Assembly: GCF_022179345.1 (NCBI RefSeq)
Contig: NZ_BPQR01000010.1
Location: 1 to 64,000, forward strand
Length of the DNA: 64,000 nt
Reading direction: 5' to 3'
From: Methylobacterium jeotgali
GTDB lineage: Bacteria; Pseudomonadota; Alphaproteobacteria; Rhizobiales; Beijerinckiaceae
The notes beneath the pieces were generated by a model. The model saw only the letters and a program-made list of their open reading frames with translations. It ran no database searches and was not told the DNA's origin. Made by a program: the position numbers and the translations under genes. The stretch's first letter is position 1. Each line of letters begins with the position of its first letter. Shown in pieces: positions 7,440-41,772 of the stretch.

Positions 7440-7533
7440 AGGCCGGACGTCAGGACTCCGCCCCTCCGCCGGTCTCTAAGGATGAGCGGAGCCGAGAGCC
7501 TCGCGGCCCGGTTCCGACAACCGATCGAGCGGC

Positions 7534-8478: not shown

Positions 8479-8608
8479 TCCTCTCGCCGGTCCTCGAAAG
8501 AATCTGCGTTCCGGAGGTCAGGAGTTTCCAGGCTCGCCGGTCTACCTTCGCAGGGACGGCAGAGCCGAAGCGCCATCGTCCCTTCGCAGGAAGCGACCGG
8601 GGCTGACG

Positions 8609-25541: not shown

Positions 25542-26417
25542 ATGATATCGGAAGCGGAAGGATCGACCGAGGAGAGCGAGAACTACTTCGTGTCCATGAC
25601 GGACATGATGGTGGGGATGCTCTTCATATTCATCATCATGCTGATGGTCTTTGCGCTGAATTATCGCATCGGCGACGATGATTCGAAGCGCATCAAGGAT
25701 TGCCTGACCAACGTCCTCATGCGCAACGCCCAGTTGAGCAGCGACATCAACGCGAAGGTCAACCTCATCCAGGACAACGTCCGCGGGCAGATCGAGGCGT
25801 TGGAGCTCGCGGCGGACCAGCGGCGTCGCCTGCTCAACGTCATCCGCGAACAGCTCGCGGCCCAGGGGACTGCCGTCGAGATCGACGAGAGGAACGGCGT
25901 CCTCCGGCTGACCGAGGCCGCGGTCCGTTTCGACCCGGGCAAGTCCGACCTCGACGCGCGTGCCCGCGAGAACGTCGGGAGGATCGCCAGGGTGCTCGCG
26001 GCGGCGGTCGGGGCATTCCAGAGCGCCGGGCTCGAAACGATCTTCGTCGAGGGCCACACCGACACGACCGGCGTCCCGGACCTCGCCGAACGCGACAGAC
26101 GCAACTGGGTACTTTCGACCGAAAGGGCGACCTCGACCTATCGCGAGCTCCTTGCCGACGCTCCCGAGCTGCGGCAGTTCCGGAACCGCCGCGGGGAGAC
26201 CGTCGTCTCGGTGTCGGGGTACTCGTCCACCCGCGCCATCGCCGCCGGTGAGGACCGGGAAGCCTGGGCCCGCAACCGGCGCATCGACCTCCGGTTCGTC
26301 ATGGACGCCGACACCACAGTCAACCTGCGGGACATCCTCAGCCTCAACGAACAGGTGAAGGCCCAGATCGCCCGCCTCGCCGAGATCAGCCAGGAAAGCA
26401 TCCAGGCATGCAAATGA
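25542..26417 (+). CDS. zorB: Zorya ZorB: MotB/OmpA-like stator subunit
   Basis: A 291-residue protein with one N-terminal transmembrane helix holding the proton-carrying Asp (SMTDMMVGMLFIFIIMLMVF, Asp21) and a C-terminal OmpA/MotB peptidoglycan-binding domain (VRFDPGKSDL, FVEGHTDTTG, ARNRRIDLRFVMD). It pairs with ZorA as the dimeric core of the motor and anchors it to the cell wall. Its 3' end overlaps the start of zorC by 10 bp, indicating translational coupling. Confidence 0.92.
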   Translation: MISEAEGSTEESENYFVSMTDMMVGMLFIFIIMLMVFALNYRIGDDDSKRIKDCLTNVLMRNAQLSSDINAKVNLIQDNVRGQIEALELAADQRRRLLNVIREQLAAQGTAVEIDERNGVLRLTEAAVRFDPGKSDLDARARENVGRIARVLAAAVGAFQSAGLETIFVEGHTDTTGVPDLAERDRRNWVLSTERATSTYRELLADAPELRQFRNRRGETVVSVSGYSSTRAIAAGEDREAWARNRRIDLRFVMDADTTVNLRDILSLNEQVKAQIARLAEISQESIQACK

Positions 26418-27787: not shown

Positions 27788-27789
27788 AC

Positions 27790-30700
27790 ATGGCCGTGCG
27801 GTTTCAGGCTCGGTGTTTGTCGGACCATGTTGAGATCACGCTCGTGCGGTCGGTCTTGCTCAGGGGGGCGCGGCCACTTGCCCGGGCAGACTGGGAAACC
27901 CTCGATGGCGCGAATGCGGCCACGGCGCGGCTCCTGCTGGCCGCAGTGGCCGAGGCCAACACGCAATGGCGGGATGGCACGCTGGTGATCCCGAATCAGG
28001 CTGCAGCGGAACTGCCCGGGATGCTGGCTTCCCGCATCGGTCTGCCAGACCCTGCGCCGGTCTTTGTGGCCATCTCCATCAAAGGCGCAATCAGCCAAGC
28101 CGATAGCTCTATCAGGGTGGTATGGCGCGAGACTTCCTATCGGGAAATTACACCCCGTAGGTCCGGGATCATGATCGAATGGGGCGAGCGATCAGGGCGT
28201 CTGACAGCCCCACTCTTTGCTCTCATGGAGGCGGCCGACGGTTACAACCGGGCTGCACAGAAAGGTCTGGAAGGCAGGGTGGCTTGGTGGGGCTCGATCC
28301 AGCAAGCCATCGCGCGAGTGGCTCCCGACACCATCGAAGACGACTACACTCGCAGCCTCACTGTCTACCAAGCCGGTTCCTTTTCCCTCGACATCGACGA
28401 CCGTCCCGGCCGCATCAGTTTCGACCCGATCCTGATGAGCCGTTCCTGGGCGCGTTCGCTGGAAGATAACGCTCCTGTCGGGGACGACGATCAATCCGAA
28501 CCGGGTGACAGCGAGGGATTGGTCGACGCCGAGGCCGCGAGACTCCTCAATGCGGAGGACCATCGGGCATTCCTCGGCCAGTTCGAGGCCACGGACGACA
28601 CGCGCCGCGCCTATTCGCTTCGACGCACCACACATCTTCTCCTTGATCCGGATCTTCAACGCGCCCTGAACGTCGTGCGCAAGGTCCGGCTAGGGAGCGA
28701 GGACGAGAAGCGCGCCTTCATCAGCAATCCCCGTGCGGCCATCGCGACCGCCCTGGGTCTGGACGGCGGCGACGCTCTCAGCACCGCGCTCTTCGTGGAA
28801 ACATGGCAGTATTCCGAACGCGTGCTCGGGTTGGGGGCCTGGATAAAACCCGACCTGTCATGGCTCTCGAAGGCTCGGACGGACTGGTTGCCCGAGCGCT
28901 TCCCCGTCGTTGTGAACGGCCGGGAGGTGGAAATCGGTCGCGACGATATCGAGCGGCTTCGACAGGACGTCATAACCGCCGAGGCCGAAGGCAGTCCTAC
29001 CGTCTCCTTTCAAGGGGCCGACCTGGCCTTGGGAGCGGCACAGACCCTTTTCGACCAAGTCGGACTTGGACGAGCGGCCATTGCAGAGGACGGCATCGTG
29101 CGGCCGGACGCCGAGGGGCGCCCGGCCTCGACGACCTTTCCCGAGCCTGCGATGCCGGTGGTGGTCCAGATCAAGAGGAATTTCGAGGGTGTCGCCTACG
29201 TCATGGCGGCAATCCCGCGCCATCCGGCTATTCCCCTGACGCCTCCGGCGGGGAAGATGGGCAGAACCAGCTTCAAGCTGCATCAGGAGCACGGCTTCAA
29301 GTGGCTCGTGGACGCGTGGACGACCGGCTGGCCTGGTGTCCTGCTCGCCGATGACATGGGGCTCGGGAAGACCTTCCAGAGCCTTGCTTTCCTCGCCTGG
29401 GTGAGAGCTGACCAGGAGGCGCGGCCTCCAGGCCGAGCGCGGCTGGCTAAGCGACCGATGCTCATCGTCGCTCCGACCGCCTTGTTGGAAAACTGGGTCG
29501 AGGAGATGGGGAAGCACTTGGCGCCGGGAGCGCTGGGTGGCGAACTGGCCAAGGTGTTTGGCCCATCGGTCCGATTGTTCAGGAACACCAGCACTGACAA
29601 GGCCGCATCCTTCGAGAGGCTCGACAGGGAGAAGATTGCGCAGCACGACATCGTCCTGACGACCTACGAGACCCTCGCCGACAACCACATCGCCTTTTCG
29701 AAGATCGAGTTCTCGGTCGCGCTGTTCGACGAGATCCAGAAAATCAAGGATCCTGGCACGCTCAACGCCAATGCCGCGGGCGCCATTAATGCCGACTTCG
29801 TTCTGGGACTGACGGGCACCCCAATCGAGAACCGCATCGAGGACCTCTGGTCCATCATGGATCGAGTAATGCCCGGTCAGTTACGTGACCTCAGGACGTT
29901 CTCGTCCAACTACCGCGACGACGACCTGGAGAAGTACCGCCTGCTGTCCGACCAGCTCCTGAAATCCCAGGGCGGCGCTCCTCCGATCATTCTCCGGCGC
30001 ATGAAGGGCGAGCACCTGAAGGGGCTGCCGAGCAGGGAATACAAGGCTTATCCAACGGACATGCCTGAAGTTCAGGCGAGGGCCTACGGTGAGGTGGTGG
30101 CTGAGGCTGTCGCGCGAACCGGGCAACGCGCACCTGGCGCGATGCTGGAGGTGATCCAACGACTCCGCGGGATATCGTTGTTTCCCGGCGAGCCCGACGA
30201 TTTCGACCTGACGACAGAGTCAGGCTGCAGGAGCTGGATCGCGCAGTCCGCCAGGCTGGCCCGCTCATTCGAGATATTCCGTGGAATCGACCGCCTGAAC
30301 GAGAAGGTGCTCGTTTTCGTAGACACGCGCCGCATGCAGGCGCTCATGGCCCTAGCGATGGCGACGGTCTTCGGGATCGACCCACCGGTGATCATCAACG
30401 GCACCGTTCCGGGCGGGGCACGGCAGAAGAGGGTGAACGACTTCCAGGCGAAGCGGCCTGGGTTCGACGCCATGATCCTCTCGCCGAAAGCCGCGGGCGT
30501 CGGTCTCACGATCACCGCCGCCAATCACGTGCTGCACCTGAGCAGGTGGTGGAACCCGGCGGTCGAGGATCAGTGTAACGACCGGGTCTACCGGATCGGC
30601 CAGCAGCGGGACGTCACCGTCCACATCCCCATGGCCGTGCACCCCCAGCTCCGCGACAGGACCTTCGATGTGACCCTGAATGCCCTTCTCGAAAGGAAGC

Positions 30701-30810
30701 GGCGGATGTCCCAGAACCTGCTCGCACCGCCGGTGAGGGGCAATGAGGCTGAGACCCTGATGACCGATCTCGGGCTGGGGCAGGAGGGGGCGGGTGCAGG
30801 TCTTCGCTAA
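27790..30810 (+). CDS. zorD: Zorya ZorD: SNF2-family ATPase/effector
   Basis: A 1006-residue protein with an unassigned N-terminal ~480 residues and a C-terminal SNF2 helicase: Walker A LLADDMGLGKTFQ (about 516-528), motif II ALFDEIQKIKDP, motif III GLTGTPIENRIEDLWSI, motif V SPKAAGVGLTITAANHVLHL, and motif VI DRVYRIGQQRDV. ZorD is the nuclease/helicase effector that degrades incoming phage DNA in type I systems. It begins 2 bp after zorC. The following gene overlaps its 3' end by 17 bp, so that gene is part of the same transcript. Confidence 0.92.
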   Translation: MAVRFQARCLSDHVEITLVRSVLLRGARPLARADWETLDGANAATARLLLAAVAEANTQWRDGTLVIPNQAAAELPGMLASRIGLPDPAPVFVAISIKGAISQADSSIRVVWRETSYREITPRRSGIMIEWGERSGRLTAPLFALMEAADGYNRAAQKGLEGRVAWWGSIQQAIARVAPDTIEDDYTRSLTVYQAGSFSLDIDDRPGRISFDPILMSRSWARSLEDNAPVGDDDQSEPGDSEGLVDAEAARLLNAEDHRAFLGQFEATDDTRRAYSLRRTTHLLLDPDLQRALNVVRKVRLGSEDEKRAFISNPRAAIATALGLDGGDALSTALFVETWQYSERVLGLGAWIKPDLSWLSKARTDWLPERFPVVVNGREVEIGRDDIERLRQDVITAEAEGSPTVSFQGADLALGAAQTLFDQVGLGRAAIAEDGIVRPDAEGRPASTTFPEPAMPVVVQIKRNFEGVAYVMAAIPRHPAIPLTPPAGKMGRTSFKLHQEHGFKWLVDAWTTGWPGVLLADDMGLGKTFQSLAFLAWVRADQEARPPGRARLAKRPMLIVAPTALLENWVEEMGKHLAPGALGGELAKVFGPSVRLFRNTSTDKAASFERLDREKIAQHDIVLTTYETLADNHIAFSKIEFSVALFDEIQKIKDPGTLNANAAGAINADFVLGLTGTPIENRIEDLWSIMDRVMPGQLRDLRTFSSNYRDDDLEKYRLLSDQLLKSQGGAPPIILRRMKGEHLKGLPSREYKAYPTDMPEVQARAYGEVVAEAVARTGQRAPGAMLEVIQRLRGISLFPGEPDDFDLTTESGCRSWIAQSARLARSFEIFRGIDRLNEKVLVFVDTRRMQALMALAMATVFGIDPPVIINGTVPGGARQKRVNDFQAKRPGFDAMILSPKAAGVGLTITAANHVLHLSRWWNPAVEDQCNDRVYRIGQQRDVTVHIPMAVHPQLRDRTFDVTLNALLERKRRMSQNLLAPPVRGNEAETLMTDLGLGQEGAGAGLR

Positions 30811-31660
30811 GCGGGATCACGGCTTCGATCCGGCGGGCTGGCCATTGGTCGCCTTCGGCAAAGAAGGGAACCGTGACGCGCTCCTTCGTGCCTCGAAGCC
30901 CGGGGACCGGGTCGTGTTCGTCGGCACGCAGGGCGAACCGACGGCTCCGGAGGAACGAGGCCGTTTGCTCGGCATGGCCGAGTTCGCCCGTATCGCCGTC
31001 AATACGCGGGACATCGTCGATCCAGGCCTGATGCAGGCCAGGGACCTCAATGAGGACGGCACCCACGTTTGGGGCTGGGCCCTGCCGATGGTTCGGGCCT
31101 GGCGGTTCACCGAGCCACGGCTGAAGCTCATCGACGTCCTAAGGGAGCAGCTGAGCTACGAGGCGACGGTGCGTGCCGTCCTGCTCGATGACGCCGATGC
31201 CGGCATGGTGATGGCGCTGCCCAAGGACGAGGTTCCGGTCGCCGTCAACGCCCGTGTGCGTGGCCTGACCGAGGCTGTCGATGCCATCACGGGCACCGGT
31301 CCTACGACAGGCCTCACGCCGACATCCTGGGAGGGTAGCGTCTCGCACGATGCCACTCGGGAGGCCTGGACCTACGCCATGAGGTTCGGCCGACGGAACA
31401 TCTGGAAGGTCGGTCACGCCCAGGACGTGGAAGAGCGCCTGCGCCAGATCAACCTGCACGTGCCGCACGAGGAACTCGGTGAGCAATGGCGGCTCCACGC
31501 GCAACAGCGTTGGCCCACCTCCCTCCAGGCCTTCGAGATGGAGCAACGCGTGTTCGGGGCGATGAAGTCGTTTCGGACGCAGGGGGAACGGCTGCGCTGC
31601 ACCGAAAACCAGCTCCTCCAAGCCTGGACAGGATCGTTGACCTCGACCTCAGGTTGCTGA
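30794..31660 (+). CDS. Zorya-associated protein: possible PUA/EVE-like domain plus GIY-YIG nuclease domain
   Basis: A 288-residue protein starting at GTG 30794 inside the end of zorD. The N-terminal ~115 residues (PGDRVVFVGTQGEPTAPEER, RLLGMAEFARI, HVWGWALPMVRAWRF) resemble PUA/EVE-type folds, which can read modified bases. Residues 192-280 match the T5orf172/MUG113 GIY-YIG group: TYAMRFGRRNIWKVGHA (Tyr194, Lys205-Val-Gly-His), EERLRQIN (Arg215), and FEMEQRVFGAM (Glu248/Glu250). It is probably an accessory effector or a self/non-self filter of this Zorya locus; the N-terminal call is tentative. Confidence 0.7.
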   Translation: MQVFAKRDHGFDPAGWPLVAFGKEGNRDALLRASKPGDRVVFVGTQGEPTAPEERGRLLGMAEFARIAVNTRDIVDPGLMQARDLNEDGTHVWGWALPMVRAWRFTEPRLKLIDVLREQLSYEATVRAVLLDDADAGMVMALPKDEVPVAVNARVRGLTEAVDAITGTGPTTGLTPTSWEGSVSHDATREAWTYAMRFGRRNIWKVGHAQDVEERLRQINLHVPHEELGEQWRLHAQQRWPTSLQAFEMEQRVFGAMKSFRTQGERLRCTENQLLQAWTGSLTSTSGC

Positions 31661-31758
31661 ACACCGTCGATTTCGGTGCGCGTTGAGGCCCGGGCGAAGC
31701 CAGAGGTTGAACGCTGGGACGAATCCTTCTTCCGCAGCTAGGCTTGGTCAGCACGCCC

Positions 31759-31788
31759 CAGAGGTTTTTTGCCGCCCCGACAGATCAA
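31759..31788 (+). promoter_or_regulatory. Shared 30-bp motif, copy 1 (before the sigma-like gene)
   Basis: The motif has the form CAGAGGTTTTTT, 5 variable bases, CCC, 2 variable, C, 1 variable, GATCAA. An identically spaced copy lies at 36570-36599 before the Bil operon. Distance from motif end to start codon is 43 nt here and 41 nt there. It may be a promoter (-35-like GGTTTTTT, -10-like GATCAA) read by the sigma-like factor encoded just downstream, or an operator. Confidence 0.6.
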
Positions 31789-31831
31789 AGGTCCATGGGA
31801 GGGCTTGGCCTCCCCAAAGCAGCGGGGAGAC

Positions 31832-32530
31832 ATGCCCAATATCCTGACCCATCCGAAGCGCGTCGCCAGCGCGCTCGACCAGATCGACGACCTTCCGGAC
31901 GAAGCCGACGTTCTGGCCCTCCTGAACGACCACCATCGACGGCCTGCCTTGCCGCCGGAGGTGTACGTCAGGCTCCTGCGGCGGTGTCGGGTCGCTCCGA
32001 ACCGGAGGGTGGAGCATGCGACGCTCAAGGCGCTGATCGCCTTCGTCGTTCGGTGGGTGGGCTGGCAGTACCGCGGGCTCTCGCATCACGACCGTGAGGA
32101 AATGGCCCAGGGTCTCCTGCTCGTCATCAACCGGGAGGTCGCCAAGCAGACCGGCATCGACTGGTGGGAGATCACCTTCCGGACGAACATGGAGCGGGCC
32201 GCCGCCGATCTCTACCCGACCCTCTACGACCTGCGTCCCGACGCGGAGAAGGTCGCCATCGACGACCATACGGACGCGATCAACGACGAGGCCTCGGTGG
32301 CACGCGAAACGGTGGACAGCGTGCTCATCGACGGACGCATCGCCAAGATCCTGACCCCGGACGAGATGGCGGTCTTCTACCTCCTGTTTATGTCCGAGAT
32401 CCCGATCCGCAGCGACAAGGCGCCCCGCGATCTCGTGAGGATGCTCGGCAAGCCGGAAGGCACGCTGCGCGAGATGAAGACCGCCATCAAGACCAAGCTG
32501 GAAGCCGCCCTGACCAAGGAGGAGCTGTGA
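31832..32530 (+). CDS. Sigma-70-like RNA polymerase sigma factor
   Basis: A 232-residue protein. The middle (ALIAFVVRWVGWQYRGLSHH and DREEMAQGLLLVINREV) has the layout of sigma region 2, and the C-terminus (ILTPDEMAVFYLLFMSEIPI, RDLVRMLGKPEGTLREMKTA) that of region 4 with its helix-turn-helix. ATG 31832 has GGGGAGA in front; an upstream TTG at 31769 lies inside the motif and is unlikely. Its stop overlaps the next ATG. It is not a housekeeping or FecI-type sigma. In this context it may switch on its own operon and the Bil operon. Confidence 0.6.
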   Translation: MPNILTHPKRVASALDQIDDLPDEADVLALLNDHHRRPALPPEVYVRLLRRCRVAPNRRVEHATLKALIAFVVRWVGWQYRGLSHHDREEMAQGLLLVINREVAKQTGIDWWEITFRTNMERAAADLYPTLYDLRPDAEKVAIDDHTDAINDEASVARETVDSVLIDGRIAKILTPDEMAVFYLLFMSEIPIRSDKAPRDLVRMLGKPEGTLREMKTAIKTKLEAALTKEEL

Positions 32531-33120
32531 TGACCGCCAACACGACTGATCCGCGCGCCATGGCCGACGCGATCTTCGAGGCCGGATCCCGCCCCGAGGA
32601 GATCCAGGATGCCCTTGCCCGCCTTGGGCATGGTGCGCCCGAATTCCTGAGCCGCCTCGCGGCCCGAGCCGCCGTCGGCGGCGGACCCGACGTGATCGAA
32701 GGCCTCGACGTGGCCGAGGAGGAGACGATGACCTCCAAGCTGCTTGGCCGCGTCCAGGCCGATTACGAGGCACAGAAGGAAGCGAACGCTGATTCCGTTA
32801 AGCCGAGGGACCTGGGCAAGCTGCCTTCCTGGATGCCGGCTAAGGCGGCATTCGGCAACGACGTTGCCTTCATCATCAAGCTCGCGAACCGGAACGTCTC
32901 GCCGCCGACCAACCGCTTCGTCCGTTACGTAGCCGACGCGCTTGGTGTGGCCATCGGGCAGGTGAGGCAGCATTTCGCCGACACCTCCCCCCGGGGGCTC
33001 GCCGGGGTGGAAGCCAAGTCGTCCGGCAAGCCTAACGTCAACATGGTCGAGGACTTCGCCGACGCCGTCGGAAAGGCGAAGGTTCCCGACGAGCTTCGGG
33101 CTCGCTGGCTGTCGGAGTGA
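32530..33120 (+). CDS. Small partner protein between sigma-like factor and ImmA-helicase
   Basis: A 196-residue soluble, acidic N-terminus/basic C-terminus protein. The first ~75 residues are helical and acidic (GLDVAEEETM), and residues ~95-160 include FVRYVADALGVAIGQVRQHF, which could be a helix-turn-helix. ATG 32530 overlaps the sigma stop (TGATG) and the gene ends 6 bp before the ImmA-helicase gene. By analogy with ImmR/ImmA and DdrO/IrrE pairs it is a candidate anti-sigma factor or repressor cleaved by the downstream peptidase. This is inference; the family is not recognised. Confidence 0.6.
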   Translation: MTANTTDPRAMADAIFEAGSRPEEIQDALARLGHGAPEFLSRLAARAAVGGGPDVIEGLDVAEEETMTSKLLGRVQADYEAQKEANADSVKPRDLGKLPSWMPAKAAFGNDVAFIIKLANRNVSPPTNRFVRYVADALGVAIGQVRQHFADTSPRGLAGVEAKSSGKPNVNMVEDFADAVGKAKVPDELRARWLSE

Positions 33121-33126
33121 ACAAGC

Positions 33127-36100
33127 ATGGACGCGTTTGCCCTAGCTCGCCATCTGGCTAGGCGCAGGCGCGCTCAGCTGCCGGCAGGTATCCAGTCCGG
33201 CTACGCGGCCGTGGAGCATGCCTTCACGGCCGAGGGTCTTCAGATCCTGAAAGAGCCCGTCGATGGGTCGGTCCTCGGCGGATGCGACGCGAAGCTTTAT
33301 CGCGACGCGTCCGCCGTCTTCGTCCGGGAGGACGCCAGCGAGGCCGAACAGACCCTCCATCTCGCCCATGAACTGGGCCATCTCGACGTTCACCGACCCG
33401 ACGATCCCTGCGAGCTCCATCAGACCGACCTGCGTCCCGCGGGCTCGCGGGCGCTCTCGAAGGTCGAGGCTTACGGACCGCGCGAGCGCCGCGAACTTCA
33501 GGCCAACGTGTACGGCCGCGAGTATCTCCTGCCGCGCGACCTGGCGAGGCAGCTTTTCCTCGACGAAGGCCTGCCGGCGTCCGAGATCGCGAGCCGCCTC
33601 CGTATCCCGCTGCCGATGGTCCGCCAGCAACTGTTCGATGCCCTGCTCCAGCGCGATGTCGAGCCGCCGGCAGATGCGCCCGCCAAGGAGCCTCAGGACC
33701 TCGACAAAAGCCAAGCGACGGCGGTGGAACACGAGGGTCGCGCCCTGCTGGTCGAGGCAGGCCCGGGCTCCGGTAAGACGAAGACCCTCGTCGCCCGGGT
33801 GAGCCACCTGCTCGACAGGGTCCACCCCTCCCAGATCCTCGCCCTCACCTTCTCGAACAAGGCGGCCGCCGAGCTCTCCTCGCGGATCACGGAGATGCGG
33901 GGCGACGACACCGTCGAGGTGTGGACCGGGACATTCCACGCCTTCGGCTTGGAGGTGATGCGCCGCCACTACGACCGAATGGGCCTGGGGCCCAAGATCC
34001 GTCTGGTCTCTCCATCTCAGGCCGTGGAGATGCTGGAGGAGCGCCTCCCGCTGCTCGGCCTGGTCCACTTCCACGACCTGAGCAACCCTGGGGCCAAGCT
34101 CAAGGAGATCCTCAAGCCCATCGGGCGCGCCAAGGACGAACTGATCGGTCCCGCCGAGTTCCGCAGGCTCGCGGAACAGAACCTAGAAAGGGCCCAAGCG
34201 GCCTACGAAGCCCTCGCCAGAAAAACGAAGGCGGCGCTGAAGCCCATTGAGGTGGCAGAGAAGACGCTGGAGGCCGCCGCCGTCTACGAGGCCTACGAGG
34301 CGATGCTGAGGAGCAATGGGCTCGTCGATTTCGCGGACCTGGTGATGAAGCCGGTCCTGCTCATGCGCGACGACCCGGAGATCCTGGGCCAGTTGCAGTC
34401 GAGGCACCGCGAGATCCTCGTGGACGAGTATCAAGACGTCAATCGCGCGAGTTCGACGATGCTCCAGCTTCTCTGGGGCGAGAGCAACCGCATCTGGGTC
34501 GTCGGTGACGCCCGGCAGAGCATCTACCGGTTCCGTGGGGCGTCCCCCCTGAACATGGAACGGTTCGAGCAGGATTTCCCCGGCGGCGAGCGCGTGCCCC
34601 TCGAATTCAACTACCGGTCCACCGACCACGTCACCGGGCTGTGCCGAACCTTCGCAGCGGCGAGCGACGAGGCACGGAAGAAACCCGGCCAGCCGTCCGG
34701 GGAAACTCTGCCCTACTTGGCCGAGGCGAAGAGGAAGGAGCCCGGGAGCCAGACGCGGCTGCTGGTTGGCCAGGACGACGATTGCGAGGCGGATCTCGTC
34801 GAGAAGGAGATCCGGGCGCTTCGCGATGCCGGTGTCCGGTTCGGTCAGCAGACCATCCTGGCCCGCACCAACACCAGGTTGGACACCCTCGCCACGCGCC
34901 TGGCTCGGCATGGCATCCCGGTGCTTCACCTAGGCAGCTTCTTCGAGCGAAGCGAGGTGCGGGACATCCTGTCGATCCTCGCCATCGTGGCCGAGCCGAA
35001 CGGGGCAGCTCTGTCCCGCGTGGCGACATTCAGGGGGATCGACGTCGTGGCAACCGACATCGCCGTCGCCGTCGAGCATGCCCGCCATCAGGGCAAGGCT
35101 CTCGCCGAGGTTCTGCCCGATGCCGTCGGCATCGAGGGCCTGACGCCGAGGGGCGCCGAGGCCCTGGCACGCTTGGGGGAGCGGCTCAGGGGCCTCACCC
35201 CGAGGACGCCAGCCTTCGAGGCCGTCGCAGGATGGCTTCTCGACCGCAGCGATTACCTGCGGCACCTGGCAGCCGAGAACGGCATCGACGCGGACATGAG
35301 CCGCTCCGCCTTGCGGCAGCTCGTGGAGTTTCTCGATCAGGTCGAGCCGGACGGAAGTCCCCTGACGGTCAAGGACGCCTTGCGCCGGGTTCGCACGGTC
35401 ATGCTGCTGGCCGACGACCGTGACCTTCGTGAGCCCGACCTTGGGCCCGACGTCGATGCGGTCAGGCTGATGACGGTGCACGCCTCGAAGGGGCTGCAGT
35501 TCAAGGCGGTGCATCTCGTCGGGCTGCACGATAAGGGCTTCCCGAAGACTCCTTCAGCCGACCAATGCCAAGTCCCTGCGGGAATCGGCGACGGGCGGGA
35601 TCCTAAGGTGGCTCAGAGCGAAGAGGAGCGTTGCTGCTTCTTCGTGGCCATCTCGCGGGCCGAGGATCACCTACGGCTCTACCACACGTGCCAAGCCAAG
35701 AAGGAGGACCGGACCCCGTCGCCGTTCATCGCCGAACTCGGGACGTTCGAGACCGAGACGCTCGGAACCCCGACGGCGAACTTCGCCGTCACTGTCGCAG
35801 GTGTTGGCGAGGTCGAGCTCGACTTCATCACCTTCCACGACATCCGTGACTTCGAGAAGTGCCCGCTCAGGGTGGCCTATCGACACCAGCTCTCGATCCG
35901 CAGTCGCCGTCATGAGAGCCCGCATCAGATGACCGGGGGCGTGATCTACGAGCTGATCGACCGCGTGTCGGAGATCGCCGGTGCGGGTCCCGATCTCGCT
36001 GCTGCCATCGAGGTGGCGTTCGGGCTGGCATGGGAGGAGCGCGGCCCTGCGGCCGATCATCCCCTGGCGGGCGAATATGAAGCGGTCGGCCGCCGCAGCA

Positions 36101-36540
36101 TCGCCGACTTGAGGCGGCTGCTGGAAGGGCATGCGGGATCCGGCAGGGAGATGGTCCGCCTGCCCATTGAGGGCGGTCACGTCCTGGTGCCGGCACCGCT
36201 CTTCTCGACGGGCTCGGGTGGCGCGCGTACCGCTCGGATGGTGGTGGCCGGCAAGAGGGATACCGCGAACGCCCGCGCCCTGACCGCCGGTCTCTTCCTC
36301 GCCGCTGCTCGTATCAGGGCCGAACAGGCCGTCGCCGCCGAGGTCGCCCATCTTACGGGCGGCGACATCATCCCGATCCTACGGGACGATGCCGAGGCGG
36401 CGAACGACCTCGAACAGGCCGCCATCATCCTCGACGCGATCCGGACCGGTCGCCTCGAACCGAAGCCGCGTCTGCAGGTCTGCATGCGGTGCGGGCACTT
36501 CATGTCGTGCCCCGCGACCGGGGCTCGCCCGCACGCGTAG
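33127..36540 (+). CDS. ImmA/IrrE peptidase - UvrD-type helicase - Fe-S nuclease-like fusion
   Basis: An 1137-residue fusion. Residues 20-175 are an ImmA/IrrE zinc peptidase (HLAHELGHLDVH, His81-Glu82-His85; third ligand Glu123 in RRELQANVYGREYLLP). Residues ~192-850 are a UvrD/Rep helicase: AGPGSGKTKT (211-220), LTFSNKAAAEL, ILVDEYQDVN, VVGDARQSIYRFRGA, VRLMTVHASKGLQFK, FFVAISRAEDHL. The C-terminus has Cys912 (FEKCPLRVAYRH) and CMRCGHFMSC (Cys1119, 1122, 1128), the four-cysteine layout of AddB/Cas4 Fe-S nucleases. The usual GxxD and D-x-K nuclease residues between them are not evident, so this domain may only bind DNA. Confidence 0.88.
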   Translation: MDAFALARHLARRRRAQLPAGIQSGYAAVEHAFTAEGLQILKEPVDGSVLGGCDAKLYRDASAVFVREDASEAEQTLHLAHELGHLDVHRPDDPCELHQTDLRPAGSRALSKVEAYGPRERRELQANVYGREYLLPRDLARQLFLDEGLPASEIASRLRIPLPMVRQQLFDALLQRDVEPPADAPAKEPQDLDKSQATAVEHEGRALLVEAGPGSGKTKTLVARVSHLLDRVHPSQILALTFSNKAAAELSSRITEMRGDDTVEVWTGTFHAFGLEVMRRHYDRMGLGPKIRLVSPSQAVEMLEERLPLLGLVHFHDLSNPGAKLKEILKPIGRAKDELIGPAEFRRLAEQNLERAQAAYEALARKTKAALKPIEVAEKTLEAAAVYEAYEAMLRSNGLVDFADLVMKPVLLMRDDPEILGQLQSRHREILVDEYQDVNRASSTMLQLLWGESNRIWVVGDARQSIYRFRGASPLNMERFEQDFPGGERVPLEFNYRSTDHVTGLCRTFAAASDEARKKPGQPSGETLPYLAEAKRKEPGSQTRLLVGQDDDCEADLVEKEIRALRDAGVRFGQQTILARTNTRLDTLATRLARHGIPVLHLGSFFERSEVRDILSILAIVAEPNGAALSRVATFRGIDVVATDIAVAVEHARHQGKALAEVLPDAVGIEGLTPRGAEALARLGERLRGLTPRTPAFEAVAGWLLDRSDYLRHLAAENGIDADMSRSALRQLVEFLDQVEPDGSPLTVKDALRRVRTVMLLADDRDLREPDLGPDVDAVRLMTVHASKGLQFKAVHLVGLHDKGFPKTPSADQCQVPAGIGDGRDPKVAQSEEERCCFFVAISRAEDHLRLYHTCQAKKEDRTPSPFIAELGTFETETLGTPTANFAVTVAGVGEVELDFITFHDIRDFEKCPLRVAYRHQLSIRSRRHESPHQMTGGVIYELIDRVSEIAGAGPDLAAAIEVAFGLAWEERGPAADHPLAGEYEAVGRRSIADLRRLLEGHAGSGREMVRLPIEGGHVLVPAPLFSTGSGGARTARMVVAGKRDTANARALTAGLFLAAARIRAEQAVAAEVAHLTGGDIIPILRDDAEAANDLEQAAIILDAIRTGRLEPKPRLQVCMRCGHFMSCPATGARPHA

Positions 36541-36569
36541 GACGATGTGGCGGTTCGGCAATCGGGCGT

Positions 36570-36599
36570 CAGAGGTTTTTTCGGCGCCCAGCCGATCAA
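36570..36599 (+). promoter_or_regulatory. Shared 30-bp motif, copy 2 (before the Bil operon)
   Basis: This copy matches the motif at 31759-31788: a 12-base identical block CAGAGGTTTTTT, then CCC, C and GATCAA at the same internal spacing. It lies 41 nt before the ATG of the ubiquitin-like gene and just after the stop of the ImmA-helicase gene. It gives the Bil operon its own start point while linking its control to the upstream three-gene module. Confidence 0.6.
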
Positions 36600-36640
36600 T
36601 TCCGTGAGCGGCCACGACGGCCGGCTACGGAGTTCACTAC

Positions 36641-37129
36641 ATGACCACGCACATCGACATCTTCATCCGCCGCGAGGGCGACCTCGATCCGGCCCATCAC
36701 CAAGTCCACGACGGCATCACCGTCGAAACCCTCAAGATCGACCTGGCCAATGGCCGGGAGGTGATCGGCCTCTTCCTCTTCGAGGAGGACGCCGACGAGC
36801 CGCTGCCGGACCACCACCAGATCCGGCACCACGGCAAGCCCCACTTCCTGCACCACAGCCGCTGCCGCCACGTGCACGTCGTCGTGCGGTACGCCGGCCG
36901 TCCGGTCGAGCGGGCCTTCGGCCCGGGCTCCACGCTGACGCGGATCAAGGACTGGGCCGAGCGCCAGTTCGAGATCGACGCGGTCGATGCCGCGGAGCTC
37001 TCCCTGCAGCTGCACGGGACCAACGACCGGCCCGACGAGGCAACACACGTGGGCTCCCTCGCCAAGTGCCCGGACTGCCGCGTGGTCTTCGACCTGCTGC
37101 CCTCGACCCGCGTGAACGGGAGCATCTGA
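36641..37129 (+). CDS. bilA: BilA: tandem ubiquitin-like protein
   Basis: A 162-residue protein that reads as two beta-grasp units. The first spans about residues 1-70 (THIDIFIRREGDLDPAHHQV, LFLFEEDADEPLPDH). The second spans about 75-160 (RHVHVVVRYAGRPVERAFGP, STLTRIKDWAERQFEID, RVVFDLLPSTRVNG). This is the ISG15-like double-Ubl form of BilA. The C-terminus RVNGSI would expose a terminal Gly if the last two residues were removed by the JAMM peptidase. CPDC (residues 142-145) may bind zinc. ACGGAG 8 nt upstream supports ATG 36641. Confidence 0.8.
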   Translation: MTTHIDIFIRREGDLDPAHHQVHDGITVETLKIDLANGREVIGLFLFEEDADEPLPDHHQIRHHGKPHFLHHSRCRHVHVVVRYAGRPVERAFGPGSTLTRIKDWAERQFEIDAVDAAELSLQLHGTNDRPDEATHVGSLAKCPDCRVVFDLLPSTRVNGSI

Positions 37130-37584
37130 TGACCCCGGATCGCGCCCAGCTGGAGCGCGACCTCGCGGCCCCCCTCTTCACAGAGGGTGCGGCCCGCGGG
37201 CGTTGGCGCCTCATCACCGTCGCGTGGCCCCACGCGATCTTCGGCATCACCGCCAGGGACAAGCGCGAGTTCGTCCTGCGGCTGGAATGCAGCGGTTACC
37301 CAGCTGAGCCGCCGACCGGCGGCCTCTGGGACCTCACGAACGGGACGATCCTGGCACCCGCCCTCTGGCCACGGGGTGATGCCGTCTTCTCCGGGACGTT
37401 CCGGTGGGACTGGCACGCCGGGGCGGCGATGTACTTCCCCTTGGACCGGCTGTCCCGCATGGGCCACGCGGATTGGGCGAGCACCCACCCGCACATGGCC
37501 TGGAAGCCCGAGCGGGGCATCGTCCAGTACATCTCCGAGATTCACCGGTACCTGAACTCGCGAGGCTACCATGGCATCGCGTGA
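37129..37584 (+). CDS. bilB: BilB: E2-like conjugating enzyme, catalytic Cys apparently absent
   Basis: A 151-residue E2-fold protein with the signature LRLECSGYPAEPPTGGLWDL (residues 51-70) and a later MYFPLDRLSRMGHADW (101-116) and RGIVQYISEIHRYL. From memory, related bacterial E2s have P-C-D-R at the 104-107 position; here it is P-L-D-R, and the only cysteine is Cys54, before the YPxxPP motif. So thioester transfer by the usual residue looks lost. Its ATG overlaps the bilA stop, and bilC starts 14 bp before its end. The family call is firm from order and motif. Confidence 0.8.
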   Translation: MTPDRAQLERDLAAPLFTEGAARGRWRLITVAWPHAIFGITARDKREFVLRLECSGYPAEPPTGGLWDLTNGTILAPALWPRGDAVFSGTFRWDWHAGAAMYFPLDRLSRMGHADWASTHPHMAWKPERGIVQYISEIHRYLNSRGYHGIA

Positions 37585-38065
37585 GCAATCCGGCCTGATG
37601 GTCTCGTACCCGATCTGGTGGCGGCTGTTCCGGGAACTCCAGCGCCGCGGTGCCGGCGTTCGGGAAAGCGGTGCCTTCCTGCTTGGCGACAGGAGCCTGA
37701 CGGGCGGGCGGGTCCGGATGATCGTATTCTACGACGACATCGACCCCGAGGCCCTCACCACCGGCATCGTGCGGCTCTCCGGGCACGCCATGAACGCCGT
37801 GTGGGAGACCTGCGCGGCTAAGAACCTGGAGGTCCTCGCCGACATCCACACCCATCCGGACGGTGCGGGGCAGAGCCGTTCGGACCAGGAGCATCCGATG
37901 GTGGCGACCCGTGGGCACGTGGCGCTGATCGCCCCGCGGCTCGCGAGATCCGCCTTCGACCTCGCCGGCGTCGGCGTCTACCGCTACCGGGGCGCGAAGC
38001 GATGGGATGTCCTCCCTACGCCCCGCTTCGGCTGGCTTGGCATCAGCATCCGAGGTGAGAGATGA
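37571..38065 (+). CDS. bilC: BilC: JAMM (JAB) deubiquitinase-like peptidase
   Basis: A 164-residue zinc peptidase of the JAB/MPN+ group with all catalytic residues: Glu32 in RESGAFLLGD, and HTHPDGAGQSRSD with His93, His95, Ser102 and Asp105. It should trim the C-terminus of the ubiquitin-like protein and remove it from targets. The gene overlaps bilB by 14 bp and bilD by 4 bp, so it is tightly coupled with both. Confidence 0.9.
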   Translation: MASREQSGLMVSYPIWWRLFRELQRRGAGVRESGAFLLGDRSLTGGRVRMIVFYDDIDPEALTTGIVRLSGHAMNAVWETCAAKNLEVLADIHTHPDGAGQSRSDQEHPMVATRGHVALIAPRLARSAFDLAGVGVYRYRGAKRWDVLPTPRFGWLGISIRGER

Positions 38066-39429
38066 CCCACTCCGATATCGACCGGCTGCGAGACACGCTC
38101 AGTCGCATCGCCAAGGTGGACCTCGACAACGGCACGGCGCCTGACGTCGAGACCGCCATGGCCCGCCTACATGAACACCGGATCGGCGTGTTCGCCGGTC
38201 CCGAGATCGCGTCGTCGGCGGCCCACCAAGCCGCCCTGCTCACCCTCGTGAACATCGGCCGGCGGTTCGCCCTCGGCGGGGTCCTCGTCGACGGTGACCT
38301 CGACGTGCCGCTGCTCGTCCAGGGCGGCCCCACAAGGTCGCTGGCCGACGAGGTCGAGGCTCAAGGCGGCCAGAGAGGCAGTGCCGATGCCTCGGTGCCC
38401 GGCGTGATCATCGGCAACACGGCCACCATGCCTCAGCGTGGCGTCGCGGTGACCTTCGAGGGGTGGCGCGGAGGAATCGTGCCTCTGAGCGGCGCGCGGC
38501 TGAGTGATGTCACGACCGTTACGCCGGCCGCGGTGCTTGCCGGCGCTCTGGCTGCCGCCGAGGTGTTCGCGATGCTACGTGGAGAGGTCGAGGCGGGGCA
38601 CCGCAACCTCGGCCTGTCGCTTTGGCGCCCCGACCGCTCCCACGACTGGACCGTAGCCGCCGGAGACGGTCCGGCCCTCGCTGCTCTGCCCAATCACCTC
38701 TGGATCCTCGGCCTCGGGCATCTTGGCCAGGCGTTTCTCTGGACCCTGATGCTCTGCCCGTATTCGGATCGGGCGGCGGTGCGGCTCGTCCTGCAGGATA
38801 CCGACGAGGTGACCGGCTCGACGGACAGCACGTCGATCCTGACTCAGGAGGGGATGCTCGGTAGGCGGAAGACGCGTGCCGTTGCCGACGTTCTCGATCA
38901 GCAAGGCTTCAACACCGTGCTCGTGGAACGTCCGTTCGACGGCGGCTTTCGGCGGCGGTCCGAGGACGACCCAGCCGTACTGGTCTGCGGCGTGGACAAC
39001 GCGCTTGCCAGATCGCAGGTTGAGATGCCGGGTTTCCCCTTCGTCGTCGAGGCCGGCATCGGCGCCAGCGCCCAGGACTTCAGGGCGCTCAGGGTCCACA
39101 CGTTCCCGTCGCCGAAGTCCGCCGCCGAGATGTGGGGACAGGGTGCTCACGCACGAGGCGCGGCCGACCTCTCCCGGCCGGGGTATCGCCGCCTTTCGGA
39201 TGCCGGCAGTGACATCTGCGGCCTGACGAGGTTGGCCGAGACGGCCGTGGGGGCACCTTTCGTCGGGGCGGTGGCCGGGTGCCTGATGCTTGCGCAGGTG
39301 TTGCGGGTGCTTGCCGGCGATTTCCCCGACACCCTAATTGATCTCGACCTCCGTTCTATCAGGTCGAGGCGAGCCGTCACTAACGGCAGGCTCACGCTCT
39401 TCAATCCGGGCTTCCAGCCGGCCGCCTAG
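38062..39429 (+). CDS. bilD: BilD: E1-like (ThiF-family) activating enzyme
   Basis: A 455-residue protein. The N-terminal ~210 residues are specific to this group. The ThiF/MoeB fold follows, with nucleotide-binding WILGLGHLGQAFLWTL (about 214-229), the acidic strand QDTDEVTGSTDSTS and VLVCGVDNALARSQVEM. Cys386 in GSDICGLTRLAETAVGAPFV is the likely thioester cysteine. It would adenylate BilA and pass it to BilB. It completes the A-B-C-D order of Bil systems, which conjugate a ubiquitin-like protein to phage tail components. A hairpin follows its stop. Confidence 0.88.
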   Translation: MTHSDIDRLRDTLSRIAKVDLDNGTAPDVETAMARLHEHRIGVFAGPEIASSAAHQAALLTLVNIGRRFALGGVLVDGDLDVPLLVQGGPTRSLADEVEAQGGQRGSADASVPGVIIGNTATMPQRGVAVTFEGWRGGIVPLSGARLSDVTTVTPAAVLAGALAAAEVFAMLRGEVEAGHRNLGLSLWRPDRSHDWTVAAGDGPALAALPNHLWILGLGHLGQAFLWTLMLCPYSDRAAVRLVLQDTDEVTGSTDSTSILTQEGMLGRRKTRAVADVLDQQGFNTVLVERPFDGGFRRRSEDDPAVLVCGVDNALARSQVEMPGFPFVVEAGIGASAQDFRALRVHTFPSPKSAAEMWGQGAHARGAADLSRPGYRRLSDAGSDICGLTRLAETAVGAPFVGAVAGCLMLAQVLRVLAGDFPDTLIDLDLRSIRSRRAVTNGRLTLFNPGFQPAA

Positions 39430-39458: not shown

Positions 39459-39834
39459 TCTCATCATGAATTAACTATAATCTTGGGGGAAATCCTGGTC
39501 TCGACGCGGGACAGCTTGAACCTTCGTCCGTTTACCTGCATTTAAGATCCCATGTTCGCGCAGATCAAATGCACGGCGCTCCGGGTGGGGATCCCCGCAC
39601 CGGCCCACGCCGATTCCTCCTCCCGCGGATAACCGCGCACTTCATCGTGCGTGACCGGGAGACCTTTGAAGGTTTGCTCCCGATGACCACCACCCTCCGA
39701 AAATCGGCTGCCATCCCGGCTTGGGCACGACCCGGCCGCGATCCGTCACGGGCGCTCGCCCGCCTTTCCGATACCCGCTGAGGGCTGACCCGCCGCCACG
39801 GAGCGCGGCCGGCTGCCCCTGCGCGGAGGCAGCC
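39459..39834. other. Intergenic region before the AAA+ protease gene
   Basis: These 376 bases hold no supported gene. TATAAT at 39476-39481 (AACTATAATC) is a good -10 candidate for the AAA+ protease gene, though the leader would be long. CAGATCAAA at 39561-39569 repeats the last part of the 30-bp motif found before the two upstream operons, without its T-run half. Confidence 0.4.
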
Positions 39835-41772
39835 ATGATCCGTAATCTCAAGAATACCGATCCCGAAGACATGCCGGCCGACGAGTTCCTCGGCCTGAAC
39901 CACGAACCCGCGGGCACCGCCCTCCAACGGGCCGGATCCAGCCTGGCCCTTCTCGGGCAACTCCTCCTGGAGGAGGCGATGACGCCGGAGATCCGGCGCC
40001 GCGTAATTGGCGAGCGCGGCATAGCCGTGCTGGTGGAAGCGCCTTCAATGGCGTGGGTGCCGTATCTTCGCCGCGCCCTCGCGCAGACAGGCACCTGGGG
40101 TCTCATCGAGGGGCGCGACGGATCCTATCGGGCCGGGCGGAAGCCAACGGACGGCGTTGCGGAGCTGGTCGAGTCTGTCGCCGCGGGACAGCGGGTGGCA
40201 GTGGTCTGCCACGCCCCCGAAGCCCATGTCCCGCCGGCTTTCATCGTGGCCGCCGACCTCCGCCTCAGGATCGGTGGTCCCACCGCCGCACTGGTCTCGG
40301 CCGCCATCTGCGCGCTGACGGGGAAGACGCCGAGGAGGATGCCAGCCGCGGTCGAGGGCTTGGACCTGCCCGATCTGGCCACAGCACTCCGTTCGGGCGC
40401 GGGCGGGGCTGCGGGCTGCGTCAGACGCCTCGAACGGGCTGTAGCCGCTCGCGCGATGTCTTCGGCCCCCCTCCGGGAGGTGCCCCAAATACATGACCTG
40501 CATGGCATGGGCGAGGCCGGCGTGTTCGCCCGCCGCCTGGTCGAGGACCACCGCTCGATGCCGGCGGAGGCCTTCTGGCGCGAGGCGGACCGCTGCTGCG
40601 TGGTTGCGGGCGAGCCCGGTCTGGGCAAGACCTCCCTCGTGCACAGCCTCGCGCGTAGCACCGGCCTGCCCCTGATCGAGACCTCGGTCGCGGCGTGGTT
40701 CGAGGGCTCCTCCTACCTCGACAAGACCCTGGCGGCGATGGTCGAAGCCTTCTCGTCGGCACGGGCGCGTGGCGGATGCATCCTCTTCCTCGACGAGCTC
40801 GACGGCCTCCCCCATCGCGACGGCCGTGAGGACGACCGCAACGGCTCGTATTGGCGGCCGCTGCAGGCCGCCTACCTCCGCGAGTGCGAACTGACGGCGG
40901 CACCGGGCTCGCGCGTCATCCTGATCGGCGCCACCAACTACCCGGGCAGGCTCGACCCGGCCTTGCTGCGGCCCGGGCGCCTCGGCCGGGTGATCCGCGT
41001 GCCTCGCCCGGACGCAACCGCCCTTGAAGGCATCCTCCGGCAGCACCTGGGCAACGATCTCGACGGGGTCGACCTGTCGGGCGTCGCTCTGGCCGGGCTT
41101 GGCGCGACCGGCGCGGACGTGAGCGCATGGGTGAAGGGCGCGCGGAGAACGGCACGGGTCTCGGGTCGGCCCATGACGCTCGACGACCTGATGGACGAGG
41201 TGCTTCCGCCCGACGACCGCGGCGCGGACGACCTCTGGCGGTGCTCGGTCCACGAGGCGGCACATGCTTGCGTCGCTCATGCAGTCGGCGGCGACGTCAG
41301 GCGGATCAGCATCGTCGCGACGGCGCGGCGCGGCGGCTCGACGGTCGTCAGCCCCGCCGGCTCCCAGACGCTGGGCAAGGACGGCCTGACCGCGCTCGTC
41401 GTCACCGCCTTGGCCGGGCGCGCCGGCGAGGAGGCATTCGGGCTGGAGGCCTCGACCGGCGCGCACGACGACCTTGCGCACGCCACGAATTTGGCGGCGT
41501 CCGCCCGGGTCAGCTTCGGCCTTGGCGGGAGTCTGGTCCATCGCGCGCCGATGGACCGAGCGGCCACCCTCTTGGGCGATGCCGAGCTCCGGGCGGCGGT
41601 CGGGCGCGACCTGCGGCGGGCTTACCTCGTAGCACAGGAGCACGTCCGCACCCACCGGGTGGCGATTGAGGCGCTGGCCCGGCTGCTCCTGGCGGATCGA
41701 GTCGTCGATGGTGCCGACTTCGCGCGCCTTATGGTGGCCCACAACCGTGCGATGGAGGCCCGCCATGGATGA
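39835..41772 (+). CDS. Soluble AAA+ ATPase / M41 (FtsH-like) metalloprotease
   Basis: A 645-residue protein. An N-terminal ~220-residue domain is unassigned. It is followed by an AAA module (Walker A GEPGLGKTSL near residue 260, Walker B CILFLDELDG, sensor GATNYPGRLDPALLRPGRL with arginine finger) and an M41 peptidase (His473-Glu-Ala-Ala-His477, with Asp546 in TGAHDDLAHATNLA as third ligand). It lacks the FtsH membrane helices, so it acts in the cytoplasm. GCGGAGG 6 nt upstream supports ATG 39835. Downstream of Bil genes it may degrade tagged or phage proteins; that link is inferred. Confidence 0.85.
   Translation: MIRNLKNTDPEDMPADEFLGLNHEPAGTALQRAGSSLALLGQLLLEEAMTPEIRRRVIGERGIAVLVEAPSMAWVPYLRRALAQTGTWGLIEGRDGSYRAGRKPTDGVAELVESVAAGQRVAVVCHAPEAHVPPAFIVAADLRLRIGGPTAALVSAAICALTGKTPRRMPAAVEGLDLPDLATALRSGAGGAAGCVRRLERAVAARAMSSAPLREVPQIHDLHGMGEAGVFARRLVEDHRSMPAEAFWREADRCCVVAGEPGLGKTSLVHSLARSTGLPLIETSVAAWFEGSSYLDKTLAAMVEAFSSARARGGCILFLDELDGLPHRDGREDDRNGSYWRPLQAAYLRECELTAAPGSRVILIGATNYPGRLDPALLRPGRLGRVIRVPRPDATALEGILRQHLGNDLDGVDLSGVALAGLGATGADVSAWVKGARRTARVSGRPMTLDDLMDEVLPPDDRGADDLWRCSVHEAAHACVAHAVGGDVRRISIVATARRGGSTVVSPAGSQTLGKDGLTALVVTALAGRAGEEAFGLEASTGAHDDLAHATNLAASARVSFGLGGSLVHRAPMDRAATLLGDAELRAAVGRDLRRAYLVAQEHVRTHRVAIEALARLLLADRVVDGADFARLMVAHNRAMEARHG

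Follow-up and report, generated by a model that had tools for sequence, protein, structure and literature searches.

The regulator operon and the Bil operon

In the window analysed here, a stretch of 64,000 nucleotides (nt) from Methylobacterium jeotgali (contig NZ_BPQR01000010.1 of assembly GCF_022179345.1, positions 1 to 64,000), a complete bilABCD operon for ubiquitin-like conjugation lies at 36641-39429, with its genes in the expected order, downstream of a three-gene regulator operon at 31832-36540, and a short bipartite element precedes each of the two. The upstream operon has the content that an initial annotation of this DNA had assigned to it, a sigma-like factor, a small partner and an ImmA-helicase fusion (hereafter the triad), as judged from domain searches and structural models. 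The elements and genes concerned are the following.

31759-31787, plus strand: proposed sigma-dependent promoter of the regulator operon, with a -35-like CAGAGG (31759-31764), a 17-nt spacer beginning with six T, and a -10-like AGATCA (31782-31787)
31832-32530, plus strand: predicted sigma-70-family factor of 232 amino acids (aa), like those of the extracytoplasmic function (ECF) type, with sigma2 and sigma4 domains; family alignment and AlphaFold2 model match sigma factors
32530-33120, plus strand: small partner of 196 aa, proposed anti-sigma, accompanying the sigma gene in every locus where the latter was recognised
33127-36540, plus strand: ImmA/IrrE-type (M78) metallopeptidase fused to a UvrD-like superfamily 1 helicase; M78 domain at residues 54-169, with HELGH
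36570-36598, plus strand: proposed sigma-dependent promoter of the Bil operon, with a -35-like CAGAGG (36570-36575), a 17-nt spacer and a -10-like CGATCA (36593-36598)
36641-37129, plus strand: BilA, ubiquitin-like protein (PADLOC, 2.1e-47)
37129-37584, plus strand: BilB, E2-like (PADLOC, 4.2e-55)
37571-38065, plus strand: BilC, JAB/JAMM peptidase (PADLOC, 8.3e-59)
38062-39429, plus strand: BilD, E1-like (PADLOC, 2.2e-152)

Two copies of a bipartite element

The 30-bp copies, at 31759-31788 and 36570-36599, are as first described: both begin with CAGAGGTTTTTT (31759-31770 and 36570-36581), carry CCC, C and GATCAA in register, and end 43 and 41 nt before the start codons of the sigma-like gene (ATG at 31832) and of bilA (ATG at 36641). 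They are identical in 22 of 30 columns, and the word common to them, CAGAGG-N17-(A/C)GATCA, has a two-block layout. The 12-mer CAGAGGTTTTTT occurs exactly twice in the 4.46-Mb genome, both times in the window, and its backwards-read control does not occur at all. When CAGAGGTTTT-N14-GATCA was searched genome-wide, matches with no or one mismatch were confined to the two copies, two more places matched with two mismatches and 14 with three, the backwards control giving six matches at up to three mismatches. When the two 200-nt upstream regions were shuffled, 2 of 300 trials gave a shared run of at least 12 letters. Within the window, the three matches with at most two mismatches were equalled by 6 of 100 window shuffles, and the two matches to a long form of the pattern, with at most three mismatches, by 10 of 100. 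By itself, the window offers modest, suggestive evidence, and the weight comes from the relatives.

Other assignments of the element were tried and rejected. No sigma-70-type site was found in 31600-36700 that would make it a housekeeping promoter; the only terminator-like site in the same interval, 34701-34684, is on the other strand and does not account for the T-run as part of an intrinsic terminator; and no Rfam match at the element indicated an RNA structure.

Distribution of the triad

A tblastn search with the ImmA-UvrD protein matched 269 of 72,556 plasmid records at an expectation value (E) of 1e-20 or less, plain helicases possibly being among them. In the 14 plasmid loci opened from these records (H2-H10, H17, H21, H24, H27 and H38, mostly top-ranked), the gene order sigma-like, small, ImmA-UvrD was found in all 14, the sigma gene being interrupted by an insertion sequence (IS) in one (L004); a downstream E1 gene, belonging to a Bil or a multiubiquitin operon, was present in 13 and an IS element in the remaining one. 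To these were added the best 80 of 334 ImmA-domain relatives (L018-L097) detected when 84,980 species genomes were scanned. All three genes were recognised in 85 of 95 scanned loci by hidden Markov models (HMMs) at E ≤ 1e-3, the models having been built from 13-15 of the same loci; the other 10 were excluded before counting, and two of them (L065 and L091) match the partner and lack a sigma match. The hosts of the triad include Alpha-, Beta- and Gammaproteobacteria, Acidobacteria, a cyanobacterium (L016) and Candidatus Manganitrophus (L050). Searched with the window sigma protein itself, the 397 genomes of the order gave only its own match at E ≤ 1e-5, the plasmids a single record, and the viral contigs no useful match.

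An E1 match was obtained in 68 of the 85 triad loci. Among the 17 others several stop at a contig end, and in L027 and L043 a Pfam ThiF, Prok-E2 or Multi_ubiq domain was found. In L022 and L044 the promoter word is still present after UvrD, though no ubiquitin-type domain was found in the downstream open reading frames tested. Relatives of ImmA-UvrD also occur where neither sigma, partner nor E1 is matched (L026, L033, L038, L057, L062, L083, L087 and L090, five of them Pseudomonas).

The element in homologous loci

The sigma proteins were grouped into 48 clusters at 70 percent identity, each represented by one locus, and the 39 with an E1 match and a full region upstream of the ubiquitin-type (Ub) operon served for expectation maximisation (EM) training. 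Without any prior motif, EM on those 39 regions yielded TTCCGGTT-N14-CGATTAA, that is, TTCCGG-16-CGATTA, with a log-likelihood of 286 compared with 63-81 on 10 dinucleotide shuffles, and a separate EM on the 48 sigma upstream regions yielded TTTCCGG..CGATT at the same spacing (181 compared with 55-76 on six shuffles), the restarts being unequal, 25 for the real data and 12 for the shuffles. With p taken against other stretches of the same loci on both strands, the position weight matrix (PWM) trained on the Ub side found a sigma upstream site at p<0.01 in 29 of 48 clusters, where about 0.5 would be expected; for the Ub operon the figure is 38 of 45, the training set included. With opposite-strand controls, a regulator-side site was obtained in 35 of 48 clusters (26 upstream and nine only intragenic) and a Ub-side site in 39 of 45; 33 of the 45 have both. 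Of the sites scoring at least 16 in the 85 loci, 38 precede the sigma gene and 59 belong to the Ub operon; the other 41 comprise 23 intragenic sites, four third targets, three that are probably Ub sites behind an interrupted UvrD gene, and six further sites on the same and five on the opposite strand.

The strict word TTTCCGG-N16-CGATYA was also searched in 12 genomes (about 60 Mb), picked from Bil-type loci whose sites were already known. It occurs 21 times, 16 of them at the loci by coordinate matching and five elsewhere, compared with about 3.6 expected at even base composition and none for the backwards control. Nine of the 12 genomes have the exact word at the locus, six of them in at least two copies.

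For the group of the window, a matrix was made from its two copies alone. Over 41,242 positions it ranked the Ub-side site first and the sigma-side site second in L018 and both joint first in L019; in L004 the sigma-side site ranked first and the Ub-side site 22nd of 46,342, and in L020 second and 15th of 25,772. A relaxed pattern of this group gave 36 matches in the genomes of L018-L020, too low a specificity to be of use. In L004 (Sphingorhabdus; 7247-9293) the IS element interrupting the sigma gene is of the IS256 family, and the Bil-side site is weak.

Homologous loci in other strains thus carry the motif before both operons, as judged by the PWM. The initial annotation had also asked whether it occurs only before sigma and Bil operons. 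The placement before these was borne out, but the exclusiveness was not, since the element also precedes multiubiquitin operons, lies within the sigma gene in that branch and occurs at extra targets.

Co-variation and association with the sigma gene

The two copies at one locus resemble each other beyond the general consensus. In the 28 clusters with both sites, 15.43 of 18 block columns are identical on average, compared with 12.50 for permuted partners (maximum 13.82 in 20,000 permutations), and the spacer is identical between copies of the same locus in 25 of the 28. Departures from the common word are shared: CGACT is found in both copies of L029, L030, L031, L035, L061 and L066, GAATTA in both copies of L036 and TTGCCGG in both copies of L022 and L044, while L024 has CGACT before the sigma gene but CGATT before the Ub operon. 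A more distant variant is found twice in L127 (TTCCGG-17-CGCTCC) and twice in L128 (TTCCGTTTTTTTA..TTCGCTnC, CGCTnC).

The presence of the element follows that of the sigma gene. In L109 (Cupriavidus), where sigma and partner are matched and an ImmA-UvrD match is absent from the 17 kb of the locus, a Ub-side site lies before the first gene of the E1-containing operon (score 21.5, p 0.006), and a sigma-side site was read by eye. Bil loci without a sigma match were sought on plasmids and in genomes. From the BilD plasmid search, 6 of 35 records were opened; in the five loci without a sigma match the PWM showed no site, with scores of -2.5 to 1.6 upstream of the presumed first Ub gene. A BilD search of 385 and 398 genomes gave 12 matches outside the window, from which 11 regions were fetched; two have the triad (L127 and L128, the sigma protein of L128 being under the HMM threshold and identified by position and by eye), and in the nine without a sigma match the 3 kb preceding the E1 gene contain no site scoring at least 11. 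These comparisons support the view that the element accompanies the sigma gene rather than Bil as such, as far as sequence comparison can tell.

The sigma-like protein

Assignment of the first gene product rests on its family. The Pfam domain Sigma70_r4_2 (sigma4) was matched at E ≤ 0.1 by 12 of 14 family members, the best at 2.6e-8, the window protein not being one of them; the family profile matched sigma factors in the PDB (best E 4e-7), and some relatives are already annotated as sigma factor or sigma-like. An AlphaFold2 model based on 35 family sequences, with a mean predicted local distance difference test (pLDDT) of 85.8 and a predicted template modelling score (pTM) of 0.59, is composed of two domains. 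The first, residues 37-131, superimposes on Rhodobacter sphaeroides SigE (2z2s; Z score 9.1, 2.5 Å over 80 residues), and residues 38-141 on Escherichia coli sigmaE bound to -10 DNA (4lup; Z 8.7, 3.5 Å over 92); this sigma2 assignment is by structure only, a sequence-level match for that domain of the window protein not being found. The second domain, residues 152-232, superimposes on region 4 of a primary sigma factor (5e18; Z 8.0, 2.3 Å over 74). All 50 listed structural alignments are, by title, to sigma factors, phage T4 gp55 included, or to transcription complexes. The segment DREDVIQE of L004, DREEMAQG in the window, resembles the core-binding region 2.2 of sigma factors. The models and the family alignment support a two-domain factor of the sigma-70 family, ECF-like (group IV).

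ECF sigma factors have a cognate two-block promoter, and autoregulation is common among them. An arrangement of this type, two blocks with a spacer of about 16-17 nt, is what lies before the sigma gene in the 29 of 48 clusters given above, and recognition by the sigma factor is predicted from it.

The small partner and the ImmA-UvrD fusion

The partner HMM matches in all 85 loci that have a sigma match, and in the opened loci the sigma and partner genes overlap or abut. No convincing match was found for the family of the small partner in Pfam or the PDB, and Foldseek gave nothing at E ≤ 0.001 for its model. Helices 94-150 align weakly with Xre-type folds, among them CapH (7t5u; Z 2.9, 3.1 Å over 55 residues). 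In the third protein the M78 domain is recognised at E 1.9e-7 and HExxH is invariant in 13 aligned members. Two Bil operons without the triad have an annotated pair of a helix-turn-helix (HTH) protein and an ImmA/IrrE protein in the slot of the triad (L110, 5258-6308; L112, 5450-6321), an arrangement like that of CapH with CapP.

An intragenic site in the multiubiquitin branch

The triad precedes multiubiquitin operons as well as Bil. In this branch the PWM found no element before the sigma operon, and a copy lies within the sigma gene, at a distance of about 555-590 nt from the gene start, with the partner gene following about 180-220 nt later (L011-L017, L047, L053-L055, L058, L063, L068-L070, L072, L078, L081, L092, L093 and L095-L097). 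The word is T(A/T)CCGG-N16-CGATT in nearly all of these loci and typically encodes YRxRLDxAI. In the alignment of 27 members, assigned to this branch or to the Bil type by similarity to named reference members, two have Met at the relevant position and L027 lacks the first block; the aligned Ile codon is ATT in 25 of the 25 that have Ile, compared with 5.8 expected from the codon use of the UvrD genes of the same loci. In eight further columns of conserved Ile, ATT accounts for 4/22, 3/17, 2/19, 7/19, 4/23, 14/22, 4/26 and 2/25, and in the homologous column of the Bil-type sigmas for 6 of 17, with 4.7 expected. This test is independent of the site score, unlike the first list of loci, which was picked by score. 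Codon choice thus makes a strong case, to which no formal probability is attached because the sequences are related, for a predicted promoter kept within the coding sequence.

Further candidate targets and neighbouring genes

Sites of the same type occur before other genes next to the triad. In L052 a third exact site lies about 60 nt before the ATG of a caspase-domain gene (6582-8131, Pfam E 3.1e-41), directly upstream of the sigma operon. In L037 (3370), L041 (3463) and L089 (3466) a pair of genes upstream of sigma, one SbcD-like (nuclease-like) and one SMC-like, has TTTCCGG-17-CGATCA in its leader, the gene names being taken from the annotation of similar neighbours and the L041 translation; the flanks differ in L041 and are nearly identical in L037 and L089.

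In the window, the genes before the triad are zorB, zorC and zorD and one gene more, and the promoter word was not found in the zorBCD stretch (25542-30810).

25542-30810: ZorB, ZorC and ZorD (PADLOC type I models), ending at the gene that precedes the triad
30794-31660: gene of unassigned function between zorD and the triad, with a weak MUG113 match (Pfam E 0.011, under the curated cut-off)

On the 3' side of bilD an FtsH-like protein with AAA and M41 peptidase domains is encoded at 39760-41772. Rfam matches in the window are a cobalamin riboswitch (597-808, plus strand) and an nhaA-I RNA (63735-63790, minus strand).

Interpretation

The sigma fold, the paired promoter, the co-variation of the copies and the way the element accompanies the sigma gene are the reasons for reading both elements as -35/-10 promoters served by an ECF-like sigma factor dedicated to them, the product of the first gene of the upstream operon. 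Such a factor would transcribe its own operon, in positive feedback, and bilABCD about 4.8 kb downstream. On these grounds we consider it highly probable that a dedicated sigma factor drives its own operon and Bil through the paired promoter, and the earlier proposal that the sigma-like protein reads the element as its promoter is thereby supported at the level of sequence and predicted fold. That the switch is dedicated to Bil was right in that it would serve Bil, and wrong in that it is not confined to it, since the same sigma switch would drive multiubiquitin-E1 operons too.

A number of observations weigh against this interpretation. With regard to the proteins, the window sigma protein has no match of its own in Pfam, NCBIfam or PHROGs; Foldseek, the source of the 50 structural candidates, returned nothing at E ≤ 0.001 for the sigma model; since the protein is helical, a Z score of about 9 is suggestive, not decisive; and no fold match of the partner model (pLDDT 79.6) is confident, the best being at Z 5.0. 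With regard to the DNA, 13 of 48 clusters lack a regulator-side site by the general PWM even when intragenic sites are included, and 6 of 45 lack a Ub-side site; regulator-side near-misses are seen in L010, L023, L036 and L050 (p 0.012-0.023), and no good regulator-side site was found by PWM in L021, L027, L059 and L086. The group of the window is itself among the misses, with a different word, approximately CAGA(G/C)G-N17-nGATnA, and this variant was defined by eye and from the initial annotation before being tested in four loci with the window-only matrix, the Ub-side places of L004 and L020 (two of eight tested places) being weak alone. Being related, the loci are not independent, and the variant groups were drawn by eye, not from a tree. 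No ubiquitin-type domain was found in the tested downstream open reading frames of the triad loci L021, L022, L025 and L044. The CGCT pattern was written post hoc from L127, where it has three additional matches, L128 having one. Finally, the control without sigma is limited: L131 and L132 end 4.4 kb or less upstream of the E1 gene, so that a sigma gene beyond the contig end is conceivable, and in L136 and L137 the BilD match is weak and the E1 models did not recognise E1. The CGCT variant of L127 and L128 escaped the PWM, and variants in other loci could have done so as well; since this control can miss promoter variants, our confidence in the promoter and sigma assignment is slightly lower than it would otherwise be.

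The roles of the other two proteins are suggested by known switches. CapP is a protease activated by single-stranded DNA (ssDNA) that cleaves CapH (PMC13373217), ssDNA enhances the cleavage of DdrO by PprI (PMC10904395), and proteases of CRISPR type III systems remove the anti-sigma proteins Csx30 (PMC10028731) and CalpT (PMC12751052). By analogy with these switches the partner is read as an anti-sigma and the fusion as a DNA sensor and releasing protease: the co-translated partner would most likely keep sigma inactive, ImmA-UvrD would most likely engage damaged or single-stranded DNA and cleave the partner, and phage attack on DNA would thereby turn Bil on. The co-occurrence of partner and sigma, the invariant HExxH and the HTH and ImmA pairs of L110 and L112 are consistent with it. 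Resting on analogy, this scheme of an anti-sigma partner and a releasing ImmA-UvrD seems to us slightly likelier to hold than to fail. In the multiubiquitin branch, the intragenic promoter would feed partner and sensor and not sigma, so that the feedback would become negative.

The alternative that best survives accepts sigma and promoter and denies the anti-sigma role: the partner would be a co-activator or chaperone, and ImmA-UvrD an effector or a protease that degrades sigma and ends the response. The partner has no recognisable anti-sigma fold, inhibition is argued by analogy, and L109 manages without ImmA-UvrD. However, partner and sigma co-occur strictly, with overlapping or abutting genes in the opened loci; a sigma factor released by a protease has precedent in phage defence (PMC10028731, PMC12751052), and peptidases with HTH partners are known as DNA-damage switches (PMC13373217, PMC10904395). 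We regard this alternative as doubtful, though one to be kept in mind.

A further alternative takes the element for an operator, to which an Xre-like partner would bind as a repressor, in the manner of CapH, until ImmA cleaved it, the promoter being a housekeeping one and the sigma-like protein accessory. The weak alignment of partner residues 94-150 with Xre repressors, CapH included, and the HTH and ImmA pairs in the same slot of L110 and L112 would be in keeping with it, and L109 and the 85 loci, all carrying both sigma and partner, cannot separate the two proteins. Against this, the element has little dyad symmetry (0.40 for block 1 and 0.00 for block 2 against their own reverse complements, 0.11 for block 1 against the reverse complement of block 2), its spacing is that of a -35/-10 pair, and a sigma-70-type promoter was not found in 31600-36700. 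The operator reading appears improbable. That the similarity of the copies is due to chance or is the trace of a recent duplication, for which the shared run of 12 in 2 of 300 shuffles could be quoted if the window stood alone, is practically excluded by paired sites in 33 of the 45 clusters with both regions, by the co-variation of the copies, and by the window copies having just the two blocks in common and not spacer or flanks.

Returning to the dedicated sigma factor, a wider reading is that it belongs to a widespread family working solely for ubiquitin-like conjugation, with a private promoter, members in several phyla, words retuned group by group, recruited genes and an intragenic reversal of feedback; as a whole this seems to us somewhat likelier than not. 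We know of no clear trigger for Bil. If true, the proposed switch would supply Bil with a regulator tied to a protease-helicase possibly able to sense DNA. It would also provide a testable promoter code, with predicted promoters in dozens of genomes and natural sigma and promoter variants for specificity swaps, and the promoter word would be a route to further genes co-switched with ubiquitin-like conjugation, such as the caspase-domain gene and the SbcD-like operon. A promoter that codon choice preserves within a gene would cleanly exemplify overlapping constraint.

Comparison with known systems

The triad was not found in the available text of PMC1779556, PMC2588565 and PMC12839542, and no description of the sensor, its targets, the group-wise words or the intragenic promoter was found in openly licensed PMC literature, a limited body beside which a prior mention may exist. 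The kind of mechanism, a sigma factor released by a protease in immunity, is already known from CRISPR type III. A close likeness is to CASP-sigma, Csx30 and Csx29-Cas7-11 of the type III-E system, where an ECF-like sigma factor, an adjacent inhibitor and a protease removing that inhibitor are combined, sigma motifs precede genes of the same defence locus and a transcriptional arm of immunity is formed; in that system, however, the protease is an RNA-guided TPR-CHAT protein, whereas the window has ImmA-UvrD (PMC10028731). CalpL, CalpT and CalpS of type III-B differ in using a cyclic-nucleotide signal and a Lon protease, and a ubiquitin-like operon is not mentioned in the text available (PMC12751052). 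The controllers CapH with CapP, CapW, and CapK with CapS resemble the triad in sitting before immune operons, Bil and Bub included, and in raising their expression upon DNA damage, but they act through repressors, a sigma factor in such a role not being mentioned in the portion available, whereas the window would have sigma specificity and has ImmA fused to UvrD (PMC13373217). PprI (IrrE) and DdrO of Deinococcus likewise share with it an ssDNA-stimulated metallopeptidase that cleaves a regulator; that regulator is a repressor, and neither a sigma factor nor a helicase fusion is mentioned in the available part of the source (PMC10904395). Compared with BilABCD as reviewed (PMC11354881), the operon in the window is an ordinary complete Bil operon, and the new part is the controller placed before it.

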